A stretch of DNA of 32,243 nt from Gemmatimonadota bacterium (GTDB taxonomy: Bacteria; Gemmatimonadota; Gemmatimonadetes; JACCXV01; JAHWKZ01), in assembly GCA_025937815.1 (NCBI GenBank), contig JAICQP010000011.1, positions 1 through 32,243 on the forward strand. The letters run 5' to 3'. Below, one piece after another: positions 89 through 13,863 of the stretch (positions are counted from its first letter, which is position 1; every line of letters starts with the position of its first letter). Position numbers and translations under genes: made by a program. The notes under the pieces were generated by a model. The model saw only the letters and a list, made by a program, of their open reading frames with translations, was not told the DNA's origin and ran no database searches.

Positions 89-1792
89 CTACAAACGGTT
101 TTCTCCGGGGCGGGAAGGGGAGGCCGATCTCTTTTCGCGCCGATCCCCGAGCAGGATGCTTCCGACCAGCGCCAGGCCGCCGAAAGCCGCGCCGAGGAAA
201 CACAGGATCGCGAGGCCGGGATATCCCAGGATCGTGAACGTCGTGCGCACCTGCATGAGGAGCGCGGCGCCGACGATCAAGGCGGCGAGCACGAGGCCCA
301 TCGCGATGCGGTTGGCCACCTTCTGGAACCCCTCCACGATGGTTCGCTCGTCGATCGCCTCGACCTTGATGGCGAGCTCGTTCTCGGCGACCCGATCGAG
401 GATCTTGTTGGCGCGCGCCGGCAGACGCTGGACGAAGTCGAAGATCTCCAGCGCCGCGTTGGAGATGTTCCCCGGCGAGAACTCCCTTCGCATGCGCCTC
501 GCCAGGAGCTCCGCGGCGTTCTCACGGATCGAGGCGTTCGGATCGAAGTCGGGCGCCAGCGCGCGCCCCACCGCGTCGAGGTTCAGCAGCGTCTTGCCGA
601 GCATCGTCAGCTCGCTGGGAACCCTGACGCCCGCGCTTCCGGCGATGTGGGCGATCTCCATGACGATCGAGCCGACTTCGATGTCCTCCACCCGGGCGCC
701 GTGGTAGCGCTGGACCAGGTCTTCGACGCGGCGCCGGTATTCCGACGGGTCGTAGAGCTCGTCGACGACCTGCCCGATATCGAGCGCCACCTGCGCCGCT
801 TCCCCACCCTTGCCCTCTCCGACCGCCACCACCAGCCGCAGGAGATCGCTCCGCATGTCGTCCGGAATCCTGCCGACCATGCCGAGATCGATGAGGGCGA
901 CCCGCCCGTCGTCGGTCAAGAAGATGTTGCCGGGATGCGGATCGGCATGGAAGCGGCCGTCCACGAGGATCTGCTTCAGGTACGCCTTGAACAGCTGATC
1001 CGCGAGCCGCTCGCCGTCCATCTCGAGACGCGCCATGGGAGAGATGTCCGTGACCTTGCGTCCGCGCACGAGCTCCATCGTGAGAACGCGGTCGGTCGTG
1101 TAGTCGTGGACCGGCTGCGGTACGTAGAGCAGGTCGAATTCCGCGATCTGCCCGGCGAGCTGCTCGAGGTTCGCTGCCTCGGCCCGGTAGTCCAGCTCGC
1201 GCGCGAGCGAGCCGCCGAACTCGCGGATCATCCCCTCCAGGTGATAGCGCCGGCCCCATTCGGTGTGCTTGTCGAGGAGCGAGGCCACGCTGCCGAGCGC
1301 CTCGAGGTCTTCGCGGATGCGATCGCGGATCCCGGGCCGCTGCACCTTGACCGCCACCAGCCGGCCATCCCGGAGCGCGGCGGCGTGGACCTGGCCGAGC
1401 GAGGCGGAGGCCAGCGGCTCGGCGTCGAAGGTCAGGAACGCCTTGCTGATCCGCACCCCGAGCTCCTCCTCCACCGCCCGCTCGATGACCTCGAAGGGCA
1501 GCGGCTCGACCCGGTCCTGGAGGCGCGCGAGGGCCTCTAGGTAGGGCGGCGGTAGGAGATCGGCGCGGGTGGATAGGATCTGGCCCAGCTTGACGAACGT
1601 GGGCCCCATCGCCTCGAGGTCGTCGGCCAGCTGCTCGGCCCTGGCCGCGGCGTCGCCCTCGAGGACGGGCTCTTCCTTGAGCTCGGGGGCGATCCCGGCC
1701 TGCTCGACGAGGTCGGAGCGCCCGTACTTCCAGAGGAGGCGCGCGATCTCCCCGAAGCGCTCCAGGCGGGCGACCCCTTCGGCCAGCTTCAT
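89..1792 (-). CDS. ABC1/UbiB-family atypical kinase (AarF-like)
   Basis: This is a 567-residue member of the ABC1/ADCK/UbiB protein-kinase-like family, which supports ubiquinone biosynthesis in proteobacteria and has poorly known lipid or quinone-related roles elsewhere. Visible signatures are the KxGQ motif (VKLGQ, residues 67-71), the Ala-rich nucleotide loop (ASASLGQVHAA, 128-138), the conserved Lys in VAVKVQRPG (K149), the catalytic-type HADPHPGN (282-289) and DLG (302-304). Two hydrophobic helices at about 495-550 form the C-terminal membrane anchor typical of the family. The length is usual. It starts at ATG 1792, 10 bp after the stop of the small upstream ORF, so it is probably co-transcribed; no strong Shine-Dalgarno is seen. 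Family assignment is firm. Whether it serves ubiquinone or menaquinone is not shown. Confidence 0.93.
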   Translation of the reverse strand: MKLAEGVARLERFGEIARLLWKYGRSDLVEQAGIAPELKEEPVLEGDAAARAEQLADDLEAMGPTFVKLGQILSTRADLLPPPYLEALARLQDRVEPLPFEVIERAVEEELGVRISKAFLTFDAEPLASASLGQVHAAALRDGRLVAVKVQRPGIRDRIREDLEALGSVASLLDKHTEWGRRYHLEGMIREFGGSLARELDYRAEAANLEQLAGQIAEFDLLYVPQPVHDYTTDRVLTMELVRGRKVTDISPMARLEMDGERLADQLFKAYLKQILVDGRFHADPHPGNIFLTDDGRVALIDLGMVGRIPDDMRSDLLRLVVAVGEGKGGEAAQVALDIGQVVDELYDPSEYRRRVEDLVQRYHGARVEDIEVGSIVMEIAHIAGSAGVRVPSELTMLGKTLLNLDAVGRALAPDFDPNASIRENAAELLARRMRREFSPGNISNAALEIFDFVQRLPARANKILDRVAENELAIKVEAIDERTIVEGFQKVANRIAMGLVLAALIVGAALLMQVRTTFTILGYPGLAILCFLGAAFGGLALVGSILLGDRREKRSASPSRPGENRL

Positions 1793-1802
1793 GTCGGGGG
1801 GA

Positions 1803-3523: not shown

Positions 3524-4255
3524 TCACTCGTCCAGCCGGTCCATCCCGCAGACATGGTCGAGCGCATGGAAGCCGGGCACGTAGTGGAGCGCGCCCTCCT
3601 CTTCGTCGTACCAGTTGCACTGGAGGCGGCGCTCGAACAGGAGGCTGCCGCAGCCCGCGCACTCGTTGTCGTTCTCGCACAGGCAGCAGACGGGGAGCAC
3701 GAGGGGCTCGGCGCTTCCGCGGGGGTCGAGGCAGGCGCCCCGCCACTCGCCGCACTCCGGGCACCGCTCGAGGCCTTTGGGCACCCCCTCCTCGCTCTCC
3801 CCCGCCAGCGCCGCGGCCTCCTCCGGGGAGGGAGACCAGCCCCCGCGGGCCGGGTCGCACCAGATCGTCCGCTGTCCCTGGCGGCAGGCGTATTCGCGCA
3901 GCCGCTGGGCGCGTTCCGCCACCCCGGAGTCGGACGGCAGGATCTCGCACGGCACCAGCTTGCCCACCGCGACCGCGACCTCGCGCGGCTCGGCGCGGGC
4001 CGGCAGCACCGAGCCGTCGGTCCGGAGCCACAGGCAGCTGTCGGGAGTCAGGAGGAAGTAGGTCGGCAGGCGGTTCGCCTCCGCCTGGCGGAAGGCCACG
4101 TTGAGCTGGCTGTAGAGCGGCCACTCGCGGGACAGGAGCAGGATGTGGAACAGCTCGGGCTCGATCCGCGTGGCGAGATACGGCGCGGCGTCGAAGGCGG
4201 GAAGCAATAGGCTCAGGCCGACGGGCGGGCTGTCGCTCCGATGGCTGGGGATCAC
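3524..4255 (-). CDS. unknown Cys-rich (zinc-ribbon) protein, paralogue 1
   Basis: This 243-residue protein belongs to a family I do not recognise. The GTG start at 4255 is supported by GAGGAG just upstream. An N-terminal block (FDAAPYLATRIE, 21-32) is followed by a probable alpha/beta region. The C-terminal third is Cys-rich: CPECGEW (165-171), C175, CCLC (190-193), CAGC (199-202), C213 and C236. This looks like one or two treble-clef or zinc-ribbon sites. It is clearly paralogous to the protein encoded at 5492-6205: both share FDxAPYLATR, RCxECGEW, the CLDP/LVPV/YVPG blocks and the Cys pattern. No signal peptide or membrane segment is seen. A perfect 8-bp inverted repeat (4269-4293) lies immediately before its ribosome-binding site. 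Function is unknown; metal binding is inferred from Cys spacing only. Confidence 0.85.
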   Translation of the reverse strand: MIPSHRSDSPPVGLSLLLPAFDAAPYLATRIEPELFHILLLSREWPLYSQLNVAFRQAEANRLPTYFLLTPDSCLWLRTDGSVLPARAEPREVAVAVGKLVPCEILPSDSGVAERAQRLREYACRQGQRTIWCDPARGGWSPSPEEAAALAGESEEGVPKGLERCPECGEWRGACLDPRGSAEPLVLPVCCLCENDNECAGCGSLLFERRLQCNWYDEEEGALHYVPGFHALDHVCGMDRLDE

Positions 4256-5161: not shown

Positions 5162-5401
5162 TCAGTCGGGAGGGAGGTCGACCTTCCGCCGGGCCGGATC
5201 CGGATTGCGGCGGTAGAGGATCGCGATGCGGCCGACCTGCCCGGCGAGATCGGAGGCGGTTCGCGCGGCGATCGCGGCCGCCGCCCGGGCGCGCTGCTCC
5301 CGGTCGCCGGGGAGCCGGATCTTGATCAGCTCGCGCGCCTCGAGCGCGTCGTCGACCTCGCGCACGACCGCGTCGGTCACGCCGGCGCGGCCGACGAGCA
5401 C
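5162..5401 (-). CDS. CRM-domain (YhbY-like) RNA-binding protein, N-terminally short
   Basis: The 79-residue product carries the core of the CRS1-YhbY (CRM) RNA-binding fold: the GxxG loop in VLVGRAGVT, then the helix VVREVDDALEARELIKIRL, the helix AARTASDLAGQVGRIAILYRR and a basic tail. YhbY proteins associate with pre-50S ribosomal particles. GTG 5401 has GGAG 6 nt upstream, but homology continues before it: the in-frame codons just upstream read LEPA, matching the usual L-x-P-V preceding VLVGKAG. The first helix of the domain (typically LTxKQRRxLRxLAH) is missing in every frame. The reading frame is open back to the TGA of the preceding gene at 5492-5494. It may therefore be a truncated or decaying copy, or start at a non-standard codon. 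Confidence 0.7.
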   Translation of the reverse strand: MLVGRAGVTDAVVREVDDALEARELIKIRLPGDREQRARAAAAIAARTASDLAGQVGRIAILYRRNPDPARRKVDLPPD

Positions 5402-5491
5402 CGCCGGCTCCAGGGGTGCGCCAGACTCCGGAGCCGGCTCCTCTGTCGGCTCGAGAGCGGACTCAACCGCGCCGCGCCCGCCCGGCGACGG

Positions 5492-6205
5492 TCACGCGTC
5501 CGCGCAGCGATGGCCGAGCGCTAGCCTGCCCGGCACGTAGCGCAGCGTTCCCGCCGCCTCGTCCCACCAGCACCCGTGGATCGTGCGCTCGGCGAACGGC
5601 TCGTCGCAACGCGCGCAGCAGGTGGTGTTCAGGCAGCGGCAGTAGACGGGGACCAGGGCCGGCGGACCGTCCGCGACCGGGTCCAGGCACCAGCCGGTCC
5701 ATTCGCCGCACTCCTCGCAGCGGCCGAGTCCCGTCGGGATCCCCTCGGGATTCCGTCCCGCGAACTCCTCGATCTCCTCGGGGCTCGCCATGCGCCCGCC
5801 TTTCAGGCGGTCGGGAGCTGGAGACTCCTCGACCTGCGATGCCCACAGCGCCGCCAGGCGCTCGAGCCGCTCGAGCATCTCCTCCGAACCGGGAATCTCC
5901 GCGCACGGCTCGAGCTCGTGGACCGCGATGCGCGTGTCGACCGGCTGCGTGCGTCCCGGCTGGATCCTGCCGTTCCGCTCGAGCGAGACGCAGGAGTCGT
6001 CGTCCAGGACGAGCACGGACTGCAGCCCGTTCCGCGTCGATTGGAGGAACGCGAAATCGAGCAGCTCGTGGATCGGCGCGCGCGGCAGGAGCGTGACGTT
6101 GCAGAGGTCGGTCTCCAGCCGCGTGGCGAGATACGGGGCGCCGTCGAAGGGCGGCACCGAGTGGGACAGGTTGACGCGTGGTTCGCTGTGAGAGATGGCA
6201 CCCAT
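5492..6205 (-). CDS. unknown Cys-rich (zinc-ribbon) protein, paralogue 2, riboswitch-controlled
   Basis: This 237-residue protein is paralogous to the one encoded at 3524-4255. ATG 6205 is preceded by AAAGGA at a 7-nt distance. Shared blocks are PPFDGAPYLATRLE (18-31), the helical segment SPEEIEEFAGRNPEG, RCEECGEWTGWCLDP (162-176), LVPVYC (184-189) and YVPG. Cys positions are 163, 166, 173, 189, 191, 196, 197, 200, 212 and 234. No signal peptide, membrane segment or known enzyme motif is visible. It is the first gene downstream of a SAM-I riboswitch plus terminator, which would tie its expression to low S-adenosylmethionine. That makes a role in sulfur/methionine metabolism or methylation possible but unproven. 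The leader between terminator and start is long (235 nt) and structured. Confidence 0.85.
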   Translation of the reverse strand: MGAISHSEPRVNLSHSVPPFDGAPYLATRLETDLCNVTLLPRAPIHELLDFAFLQSTRNGLQSVLVLDDDSCVSLERNGRIQPGRTQPVDTRIAVHELEPCAEIPGSEEMLERLERLAALWASQVEESPAPDRLKGGRMASPEEIEEFAGRNPEGIPTGLGRCEECGEWTGWCLDPVADGPPALVPVYCRCLNTTCCARCDEPFAERTIHGCWWDEAAGTLRYVPGRLALGHRCADA

Positions 6206-6440
6206 GGTTTCGTCCTTTCGCTCGCGGGTACGAGGCACCTCCCACGCGCATGGCTCCGGGCGCTGCCCGGGCGACGTTGCCACCGCTGCATCCGGACGGA
6301 TGCGTGGACGGACGGTTGGCGCACGGGTCGTCGAGTCGCGTCTCTCGCCGTGCTCTCCATGCCGGCAGCGGAGGTGCGGAGCTGCCGTGATGCCTTTCCG
6401 ATCGAGGAGCAGCGGAGGGGCGCGCTTCGCCGCGGGAGCG
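6206..6440 (-). other. long structured leader between riboswitch terminator and zinc-ribbon gene
   Basis: This 235-nt stretch has no convincing gene. It holds two perfect inverted repeats: GCATCCG/CGGATGC (6288-6303, 2-nt spacer) and CCGGGC/GCCCGG (6256-6270, 3-nt loop). The ribosome-binding site AAAGGA lies at 6213-6218. The hairpins could add post-transcriptional control. Confidence 0.4.
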
Positions 6441-6464
6441 AAAACCCCTCGCGGGAACGAGGGG
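6441..6464 (-). terminator. intrinsic terminator of the SAM riboswitch expression platform
   Basis: Read on the minus strand, a perfect 7-bp stem CCCCTCG/CGAGGGG with a 6-nt loop is followed at once by TTTT. It lies 28 nt after the 3' P1 strand of the S-box aptamer. The segment GGGACGAG (6481-6488) can pair with CTCGTTCCC in the 5' arm and loop of the terminator with one bulged base, which would serve as an antiterminator. This arrangement implies transcription is stopped when SAM is bound. Confidence 0.82.
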
Positions 6465-6492
6465 CCCAGGCCGTTGGTTGCTCGTCCCGAGC

Positions 6493-6593
6493 CGTATCGT
6501 CCGATGATCCGGTCTGGCCTGGCACCTTGGCGGCGATCACCAGGTTGCCGTGCGCGTCGCAGGGCCAGTTCCCTCGGCGCAGCTCTCGATACG
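6493..6593 (-). ncRNA. SAM-I (S-box) riboswitch aptamer
   Basis: On the minus strand, P1 is CGTATC (6588-6593) pairing with GATACG (6493-6498). It encloses, in order, the S-box conserved elements: GAGAG after P1; P2 TGCGC/GCGCA around the core GAGGGAACTGGCCC; CGGCAACC; a P3 hairpin CCTGG/CCAAGG; GGTGCCA; a short P4 (CCG/CGG); then GGAC directly before the closing P1 strand. These match the SAM-I consensus in sequence and order. SAM-I riboswitches sense S-adenosylmethionine and normally control methionine, cysteine or SAM synthesis and transport genes. Here the next gene is the unknown zinc-ribbon paralogue 2. The plus-strand nuclease gene starts on the other side, so its promoter may overlap this region. 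Confidence 0.9.
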
Positions 6594-6685
6594 CGTCCCA
6601 ATCTGCGGCGCTCCCGCGTGCCAGTCAAACGATTCGCGCCGCGCGATCGTGTCGGCGGTCGGGACTAGGGTATCTTGAAGGCCTC

Positions 6686-7804
6686 ATGCTCCGCATCCTG
6701 CACCTCGCCGACGTCCATATCGGGGCGTCCATGTCCGCGTTCGGCGATGTTGCCGAGGCCCGCCGGCGGAGCGTGCTCGACGCGTTCCGTCAGCTGCCCG
6801 AGCTCGCGAGCCGGGTGGACGCGCACGCGGTTCTCGTCGCCGGGGACGTCTTCGACCGGCCCGAGCCGGACCCGGAGTCCCGCGCCGCGGTGGCCGAGAC
6901 GTTCGCGCGGATGGTCGAAGACGGGCGGCCGGTCTTCGTCGTGCCGGGGAACCACGACTCGTCCACGCTCCTGCGACACCCGTGGGCGGAGCCGCTCGGC
7001 GGGGCGCGCGTCTTCCTGGGACCGACGTTCGAGCGGCAGTCGGTGGAGACCGCCGGCGGCCCGCTCCACGTTTACGGGCTGGCGTACGACCTGGGACGGG
7101 AGGACGCGCCGCTGTCGACCTATGCGCGCGCCGATCTGCCGGGCGTTCACGTGGTCCTCCTCCACGGCTCCGTCGACTTCTCCCCCCACTGGAAGATCGG
7201 CAGGAACGCGCTGCGGCTCCCGATCGAGGCCCTGGCCGCGCTCGACTGCGACTACGTCGCGCTCGGGGACTATCACGGCTTCCGCCCCCCGGAGCGCTTT
7301 CGCGAGGGCGTGCCCGCCTGCTATCCCGGCTCGTTCGCGGCGGTCGACGTCTCCGAGACGGGGCCGCGGGGGTACGTCGTGGCCGAGCTCGAGCCAGGGG
7401 GCGCGCCGCGCGTCCTCCACCACCCTTCCGCCGTCCCGCACCTGGTCGACGTCGGCGACGTGGACGTGGGGGGGGCCGCCGACCAGGAGGAGGTCATGCG
7501 GCGGATCGCCGAGCGGGCCGCTCCGGGGACGCTCCCCCTCGTCCGACTGACGGGCGTCCCGGACTTCCCCCTCGACCCCGACGTGATCGCCCACCGGCTC
7601 GTCGAGCGATTCGGGTACGGGCGCGTGATCGACGGGTCGACCTACTACGCCAACGCCCGGCTCGACCGGATCGCGGAGGAGGACACGGTCGCCGCCCACG
7701 TCGTGCGACTCGCGCGCCAGCGCATCGAGGCGGCGGCGGACGACGACAAAGCGGTAGTCGAGCGCGCGCTCCGGATCGCGCTGCACTCCCTGGAGGTGAC
7801 GTGA
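6686..7804 (+). CDS. SbcD-like metallophosphoesterase (DNA repair exonuclease)
   Basis: This 372-residue calcineurin-like phosphoesterase of the SbcD/Mre11/YhaO type probably acts as a Mn-dependent DNA nuclease working with the ATPase encoded next. All dimetal motifs are visible: DVH (9-11), GD in VAGDVFD (53-54), GNHD (88-91), LHG in VVLLHGSVD, and GDYHG. A smaller C-terminal capping region follows, as in SbcD. ATG 6686 begins exactly at the conserved MLRILHLADVHIG; upstream in-frame sequence is non-homologous. The stop TGA overlaps the GTG of the next gene, so the pair is translationally coupled. It is closer to the B. subtilis YhaO branch than to classical SbcD, judging by the partner's membrane segment. 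Confidence 0.92.
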   Translation: MLRILHLADVHIGASMSAFGDVAEARRRSVLDAFRQLPELASRVDAHAVLVAGDVFDRPEPDPESRAAVAETFARMVEDGRPVFVVPGNHDSSTLLRHPWAEPLGGARVFLGPTFERQSVETAGGPLHVYGLAYDLGREDAPLSTYARADLPGVHVVLLHGSVDFSPHWKIGRNALRLPIEALAALDCDYVALGDYHGFRPPERFREGVPACYPGSFAAVDVSETGPRGYVVAELEPGGAPRVLHHPSAVPHLVDVGDVDVGGAADQEEVMRRIAERAAPGTLPLVRLTGVPDFPLDPDVIAHRLVERFGYGRVIDGSTYYANARLDRIAEEDTVAAHVVRLARQRIEAAADDDKAVVERALRIALHSLEVT

Positions 7805-12612: not shown

Positions 12613-13863
12613 TCAGTCGCCCGCGGAGCACGTGTACGCGAGGGTCCCCGACACGCTGCTGGCGAAGCCCTCCGTCCCCAGGTACTGAACCTGCGCCTCA
12701 TGGGATCCGAACGGAACCCGATCGGTCCCGCAGACGAACGTGCGAGTCGCCACCCCGTCCACGACCGCGACGATCGGAGCCCCCGGACCGCTCACGGGAT
12801 TCGTGGCATAGAACGCGACGTTGCCGCCCGTCGGCTCCGGATCCACCTCGGCCCGCAGCGTGATCGTCTGGCCCGCGACGAACGTCGTCGTCCCCTCGAC
12901 GATCGAGAGCGCCGTCTCGGTCGGAAGCGTTCCGGCCACCTCGGTGGCGTGCGGGCTGAACGACGTGATCGCGCCGCCCGTTCGGAGGCCGGCGGCCACC
13001 ACCCGACCGGGGCTCAGGAAATCCACGACCGTTTCGAGGATGGGGTTCGACCACAGGCCCACCTCGGTCCCGCTGCTCGCGGTCGAGCAGTCGAGGAACG
13101 TGATGTCCACCTGGGGAAGCCGCTCCCAGACCCCGTTCTCGAAGTGGACGACGTACAGGCTGTCCGGATCGACGCCTTCGGGGATCCCGTTGGGGTCGTC
13201 CGAGTCCAGCGTGCAGACGCCGGCCACCGGCTGATCGTCTTCGGCGGACAGGGTCAAGCTCCCACTCGGCGAGGTGTTCGAGAAGACGATGCCTTCCGGA
13301 TAGGTCGAGATGTCGTAGACCAGTCCGAACAGAGGCGGCTTGACCTCCATGTTGGGCAGCGGAGTGAAGAGGAGCACGAAGGGGACGTCGACCAGATCGC
13401 CGGGAATCTTGGCTCCGGCGAACTCGTTGCTGTTCGTGGCCTCGCCCTGGCAATCGACATTCGGGATGCAGGTCGTAGCGCCCTGGGCTTCGGGCACCAG
13501 CCCCACGTATTCGAGGATCATCGCGACGAGCTCGCCCGTTCCGTCGGCGCTCTCCCACTTTCCTTCCTGGAAGTGCTTGAGGATGAAGTCGATCAGCGTC
13601 CGCGCCTTCGCCTGGGCATCGGCCGGCTTCTTCGGGTACACCTTGACGATCGTCTGGAACTGGCTCTTGGCGGACTTCCCGAGCGTTGGGTCGGTAATCA
13701 CCTCGTCGATCTTGGCCAGCACATCCTGGGCCGAGACGGACGGCTGGAGCGAGCGTTGGGCTTCCGTGGGGAACATTCCATCCCCCACCTGGCACCCGTA
13801 GGCCAGTGCCGCCAGCGCGATCAGGCATACCACGCCGACGATTGGACGCTTTCCGTTAGACAT
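12613..13863 (-). CDS. lipoprotein with C-terminal Ig-like domain
   Basis: This 416-residue precursor starts at ATG 13863 with GGAGG 7 nt upstream. The N-terminus is a lipoprotein signal with the lipobox LAYGC (C24), so it is exported and lipid-anchored. A region of about 300 residues without recognised enzyme motifs contains several Cys pairs (for example TTCIPNVDCQGE). It ends near SFSPHATEVAG, a form often seen in secreted proteins of Gemmatimonadota-like bacteria. The last roughly 90 residues (TALSIVEGTTTFVAGQTITL..., then PTGGNVAFYA) match a bacterial Ig-like beta-sandwich (Big_5/Ig3-type). The role is probably structural or adhesive at the cell surface; the ligand is unknown. It is divergent to the cyclase gene at 14006. 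Confidence 0.8.
   Translation of the reverse strand: MSNGKRPIVGVVCLIALAALAYGCQVGDGMFPTEAQRSLQPSVSAQDVLAKIDEVITDPTLGKSAKSQFQTIVKVYPKKPADAQAKARTLIDFILKHFQEGKWESADGTGELVAMILEYVGLVPEAQGATTCIPNVDCQGEATNSNEFAGAKIPGDLVDVPFVLLFTPLPNMEVKPPLFGLVYDISTYPEGIVFSNTSPSGSLTLSAEDDQPVAGVCTLDSDDPNGIPEGVDPDSLYVVHFENGVWERLPQVDITFLDCSTASSGTEVGLWSNPILETVVDFLSPGRVVAAGLRTGGAITSFSPHATEVAGTLPTETALSIVEGTTTFVAGQTITLRAEVDPEPTGGNVAFYATNPVSGPGAPIVAVVDGVATRTFVCGTDRVPFGSHEAQVQYLGTEGFASSVSGTLAYTCSAGD

Follow-up and report, generated by a model that had tools for sequence, protein, structure and literature searches.

Described SAM riboswitches and tandem arrangements

Regulation of methionine and SAM genes is the textbook role of SAM riboswitches. 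In SAM-I aptamers, the residues described as highly conserved or SAM-contacting are A6, U7, G11, A12, the G/A pairs of the k-turn, G43, C44, A45, C47, G56, U57, G58, C59, A61, A87, and U88, and the SAM-II core is an H-type pseudoknot with conserved U10 to U12, U20 to C23, and G42 to A47 (PMC3764141). The spermidine riboswitch of Gram-positive bacteria is a SAM-I variant that is found before polyamine genes and is changed in J1/2 and in the P3 internal loop (PMC10853860). For the SAM-II/SAM-V tandem of Pelagibacter, the proposed roles are transcriptional control by the first aptamer and translational control by the second (PMC11508383).

The leader described here lies in a 32,243-nucleotide stretch of bacterial DNA (referred to below as the window). 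Like the Pelagibacter leader, it carries what appear to be two successive SAM aptamers that differ in kind. However, the aptamers and the bacteria are different ones: the second position (slot 2) is occupied by a SAM-I-like variant, and the genes involved are orphans.

A SAM-I aptamer and terminator in the leader of an orphan gene

An Infernal search of the minus strand with the RF00162 model returned a significant match at positions 6595 to 6491, which covers the full model (1 to 108) and scores 47.2 bits, above the gathering score of 44.4. With an E value of 5.6e-8 in the window and 1.2e-9 over the whole genome, the latter ruling out a chance match, this is the sole SAM-I match that a genome-wide RF00162 search found in the source genome. 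All the S-box elements that a sequence-only reading of the window had listed in order on this strand are present, namely, P1 (CGTATC/GATACG), GAGGGAACTGGCCC, CGGCAACC, and GGTGCCA. The L2-J3/4 pseudoknot pairs (CUGG/CCAG), and the contact and conserved residues are intact when the RF00162 alignment is read by eye against the published list (PMC3764141). The element, which occupies slot 1 of the leader, thus resembles the family in all these respects and in having a terminator downstream; it differs in that the regulated gene appears to be an orphan zinc-ribbon gene.

The 7-bp terminator with TTTT noted in the same reading was confirmed as an intrinsic-terminator-like hairpin (CCCCTCG/CGAGGGG) at positions 6464 to 6441 of the minus strand; its U-tract is short, and it is not listed by a simple terminator scan that requires at least 5 T's. 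When the growing transcript is folded, SAM-free structures put aptamer and linker sequence on the 5' arm of the terminator, and with a bonus on P1 these competing structures vanish and the aptamer is favored; the completed terminator is favored with or without P1. The predicted folding thus fits an OFF switch but falls short of proof, because the terminator dominates once complete.

The leader region is bounded by a divergent sbcD-like gene on the plus strand (positions 6686 to 7804; Metallophos, E value of 2.3e-13). This orientation rules out an operon with sbcD and places the SAM-I aptamer in the 5' leader of the minus-strand gene at positions 5492 to 6205, which encodes the orphan zinc-ribbon protein P0001, is preceded by the Shine-Dalgarno sequence GAAAGGA (positions 6213 to 6219), and is presumed to be the regulated gene, transcribed from a putative promoter upstream of both RNAs. 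A single genome of the same genus was compared (G001); its sbcD locus lacks both RNAs and P0001. A 23-bit RF00162-like match on another contig of that genome (C138) runs antisense to a coding repeat gene and was taken as chance.

P0001 has no match in Pfam or PADLOC and weak matches only in PHROG, in agreement with the earlier view that it belongs to no recognized family. Its relatives are the paralogue P0002, encoded on the minus strand at positions 3524 to 4255 (42% identity), a partial gene in G234 (28%), and a gene in G368 (31%). Upstream of the paralogue, searches with Rfam and the variant model described below matched neither SAM-I nor the variant RNA, so the earlier statement that it lacks a riboswitch stands. 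Apparent relatives in L030 (a RadA-like zinc finger) and L033 to L035 were short segment matches and were dropped. Structure prediction for P0001 gave a mean pLDDT of 47 and no useful PDB match, and no match to this protein was found in plasmids or phages; any function assigned to it would be conjectural. Directly downstream lies a minus-strand yhbY gene (positions 5162 to 5460; CRS1_YhbY, E value of 8.6e-17) that is split between two reading frames: the N-terminal portion is out of frame with what follows, and the frame changes near a C-run. This split is either an assembly error or a broken gene.

A SAM-I-like variant next to the Shine-Dalgarno sequence

A second structured RNA (positions 6243 to 6363, minus strand) lies downstream of the terminator, just ahead of the Shine-Dalgarno sequence and start codon of 5492-6205; the sequence-only reading had overlooked it, and it is the more novel of the two in this leader. 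It scores 106.5 bits with a covariance model of its own (R1), and covariation is seen across 25 aligned sequences. The window copy has no match in Rfam and stays below the RF00162 gathering cutoff of 44.4, which two of its relatives pass by no more than 1 bit (44.8 bits in L026 and 45.4 bits in L085); weak RF00162 matches in the class, at 30 to 45 bits, share the same motif.

The variant has the same four-way junction as SAM-I, comprising P1, P2 with its k-turn, P3, and P4, along with the L2-J3/4 pseudoknot and most of the contact residues. In the 25-sequence alignment, G11, A12, C44, A45, U57, and G58 are invariant, U7 and U88 are kept in 24 and 23 sequences, respectively, and C47 is also kept. 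It differs from SAM-I in the inversion of G43-C59 to C-G in P3 and of C8-G86 to G-C in P1, in a GAG/CUC P2b, in the replacement of A46 by a variable bulge of 0 to 2 nucleotides, and in A61, which is mostly C. Judged from the retained residues, SAM is the most likely ligand of this SAM-I-like variant; the changes at A46 and A61 are evidence against that assignment.

A further difference is the addition of a P0 hairpin (GGCAGC/GCTGCC; positions 6364 to 6386, minus strand), which recurs and covaries in relatives, and of a long-range helix that joins the P0 loop to the nucleotides immediately 3' of P1. In the window, the loop GCACCTCC (positions 6377 to 6370) is a perfect 8-bp complement of GGAGGTGC (positions 6242 to 6235). 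Within the open-access literature, the element at 6243-6363 is apparently an undescribed SAM-I variant. It is like the spermidine riboswitch in being a rare SAM-I variant that precedes genes unlike those of SAM-I. Its P3 internal loop is changed; in contrast to that riboswitch, it retains G11 and A12 in J1/2, and no polyamine gene is seen among the first genes behind elements of its type.

Distribution and covariation of the variant

Among 394 genomes of the class, a first covariance model, built from six sequences, found the variant in 27, which represent 18 genera. A later model was run on 395 genomes sampled from the phylum and found it in 31, every one a member of the same class. These counts are lower bounds, as only a few candidates were scored in each genome by the class searches; the genomes are mostly fragmented. 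There is one copy per genome, rarely two; two motif patterns found none in viral contigs. In G433, two variant leaders lie about 1.3 kb apart on contig 128 (L141), each ahead of a different orphan gene, one of which resembles a family in G246 and G351. In G406, an RNA whose features fall between those of SAM-I and the variant has its P1 near the start codon (L145, positions 1531 to 1627, plus strand).

In the alignment of 25 sequences, 97% of the cells are paired and 13 of 28 pairs are changed on both sides, counts that lean toward the structure to which the alignment was fitted. On each of five measures, all 500 shuffles fell short of the alignment, and pairing dropped to less than 40% when the partner was shifted by a single column. 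A MAFFT alignment of six sequences, not fitted to the structure, agrees, with 94.6% paired and double changes in 10 pairs. The L2-J3/4 pseudoknot, which lies outside the model, has double changes in 3 of its 4 pairs. The helix between the P0 loop and its 3' partner also covaries between genomes (CCGUCUC/GAGACGG, GCGCCUC/GAGGCGC, ACGUUCC/GGAACGU, and CUGUCCC/GGGACAG), and swapped partners fell below the observed mean in all 300 trials.

A SAM-II-like element in slot 1 of relatives

Upstream of P0, roughly half of the leaders with the variant (13 aligned sequences and one in G406) have an extra element, a SAM-II-like pseudoknot. Its two helices, P1 (GCGCGG/CCGCGC) and ACUUGACGG/CCGUC-U-AAGU, show covariation, and GAUUU, CUUG, and CUAA are invariant; this motif was found nowhere else in 1.63 Mb of searched sequence, counting both strands. 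Terminators follow 3' of the element (examples of the pair upstream of the variant are L090 1346-1455, L099 1349-1458, and L105 1668-1777), and in several members there is an antiterminator whose 5' arm overlaps a pseudoknot strand. Likeness to SAM-II includes the H-type pseudoknot, GAUUU in L1, UUG, and C-U-AA with a bulged U, so that U10 to U12, U20, U21, G22, C43, U44, A45, and A46 are kept; the differences are that A47 is mostly G, that C23-G42 is replaced by A-U or U-A, and that L3 often has a hairpin. Membership in SAM-II is not claimed, because cmscan returned no RF00521 match, even at permissive E values. In the window, slot 1 holds SAM-I and its terminator, not the SAM-II-like element, and the source genome is the only one among the variant leaders with SAM-I in that position. 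Upstream of a variant in G225, a terminator hairpin is preceded by what may be a compact pseudoknot, ACTTGGTCC/GGACC-T-AAAG (L106, about positions 1730 to 1800, minus strand); the pseudoknot is perhaps closer to SAM-II, and cmscan gave no match.

Genes behind the variant and behind canonical SAM-I

In about 22 of 27 leaders, the start codon follows the variant by 26 to 37 nucleotides (usually about 30), and GAAAGG is conserved ahead of it in most of them. The first genes behind the variant are mostly orphans, with no Pfam match in 15 of the 20 scanned. The others encode SNF2-SWIM helicases (G241 and G225), MoxR-type AAA ATPases (G378 and G225), and one SMP-30/strictosidine-synthase-like protein. 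Proteins resembling P0001 are encoded behind the variant leader in G000 and, as the second gene, in G368; weaker resemblance is seen in G020 and G218 (hhalign E value of 9e-5, probability of 59%). The two variant leaders of G225 (L129 and L133) precede a MoxR-type ATPase gene and an SNF2-SWIM helicase gene, which possibly form one system; PADLOC yielded generic SNF2 helicase similarity only and no assignment to a defense system.

The SNF2-SWIM proteins encoded downstream of the variant are 63% identical between G241 and G225, and the same family is found behind canonical SAM-I in G007 (77% over 71 residues), which argues for a signal common to both RNAs. That SAM-I (L077, positions 12738 to 12841, minus strand; 70.6 bits) lies outside methionine genes, ahead of the SNF2 helicase gene, and the 3' strand of its P1, GATAGG, overlaps the Shine-Dalgarno sequence AGGAGG. 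The presence of the variant before many orphan genes across the class points to SAM-linked control outside methionine metabolism.

The expectation that SAM-I nearly always controls methionine genes, voiced in the sequence-only reading, is true of this class: metX, metY, or aspartokinase genes come next in 40 of the 42 canonical loci checked, the remaining two being the G007 locus and one at a contig end. The gene downstream of 6595-6491 does not belong to methionine or SAM metabolism; that context is usual and not a requirement of the aptamer family. The metX gene of the source genome, located by TIGR01392 (PF00561 proved too broad for this search), is on another contig (C80) and has no riboswitch. 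In G005, from the same order, a 54-bit RF00162 match (L025, positions 631 to 718, minus strand) lies before a gene for a small CxxC protein, with the 3' strand of P1 running into GGAGGTGA. In metX leaders of the class (L002, L003, and L021), GGAGTTGGC-like stretches downstream of the aptamers complement the aptamer sequence GCCAACTCC and are a possible expression platform.

A two-stage model and its alternatives

In our preferred reading, to which we assign a probability of roughly 60%, the 5492-6205 mRNA carries two SAM-type sensors in series and is expressed when SAM is low. At high SAM, P1 of the SAM-I aptamer would form, the terminator arm would be freed, and transcription would stop. Transcripts that escape would carry the variant aptamer, enclosed by the long-range helix between the P0 loop and the stretch adjacent to the Shine-Dalgarno sequence, and binding of a ligand, most likely SAM, would hinder the initiation of translation. 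The net outcome would be a two-stage, SAM-dependent OFF switch that leaves 5492-6205 on at low SAM. A succession of a transcriptional and a translational step has likewise been proposed for the SAM-II/SAM-V tandem, which offers a precedent (PMC11508383). The argument for the translational step is one of spacing, as no conserved pairing that would hide the Shine-Dalgarno sequence was found.

The alternatives concern mainly what the variant senses and whether the SAM-I element still serves this gene. The variant could respond to SAH, another SAM-related compound, or an unrelated metabolite, making the leader a two-input gate for SAM and a further ligand. The altered neighbors of the binding site (the A46 bulge, the inverted G43-C59 and C8-G86 pairs, and C for A61), the precedent of SAM-I variants that read spermidine (PMC10853860), and the alterations of the SAM-II-like element at A47 and C23-G42 speak for such a gate; with the SAM-touching residues G11, C44-G58, A45-U57, U7, and U88 kept and the same SNF2-SWIM family behind canonical SAM-I, we regard it as unlikely on balance. 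The sequence-only reading had left two options for SAM-I itself, a new member of the SAM regulon or a riboswitch left behind after gene loss. The former gains support from an apparently intact aptamer in the 5492-6205 leader, where a terminator comes next and a SAM-I-like element then stands just ahead of the Shine-Dalgarno sequence. The latter, by which SAM-I would be a relict or bystander of a lost or moved methionine gene and 5492-6205 would not be SAM regulated, could draw on the methionine-pathway genes at 40 of 42 loci, on a score that is low (47 bits versus 68 to 88 bits in most relatives), and on the lack of SAM-I at metX. Yet all listed contact residues are still there, as are the pseudoknot and the terminator; the leader is linked to the same gene by its second element, the window shows no methionine genes adjoining SAM-I, and metX is present elsewhere in the genome; a relict is therefore improbable and was not supported.

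Two further explanations depart from cis regulation. If the variant elements were attC-like recombination or mobility sites of gene cassettes that merely resemble aptamers, their sporadic occurrence, one or two per genome, before unrelated genes and the two copies some 1.3 kb apart in G433 would be accounted for. Integron attC sites, however, have RYYYAAC/GTTRRRY boxes at the 3' end of a cassette, whereas the variant has a fixed place 5' of the Shine-Dalgarno sequence and start codon, conserves the SAM-I junction, k-turn, and contact residues, and shares its leaders with terminators and SAM-II-like elements, all of which makes such an origin highly improbable. The terminated leader RNA might instead act in trans, as small RNAs derived from SAM riboswitches have been described (PMC9373788), an idea that we find scarcely credible given the cis element beside the Shine-Dalgarno sequence.

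Returning to the two-sensor reading, a broader proposal, tentative and in our estimate short of even odds, is that the variant represents a new SAM-I-derived riboswitch class, with P0, two pseudoknots, and possibly an altered ligand, that forms a modular tandem with a SAM-I or SAM-II-like aptamer and governs orphan accessory genes, including those for zinc-ribbon proteins, SNF2-SWIM helicases, and MoxR ATPases, in one bacterial class. SAM-type aptamers would then stand two in series, with the first slot exchangeable in type, ahead of accessory genes of unassigned role. If confirmed, this would add a riboswitch variant represented by at least 25 examples and a new tandem architecture, and it would provide a handle on the function of these orphan gene families, whose products would be wanted when SAM is scarce.
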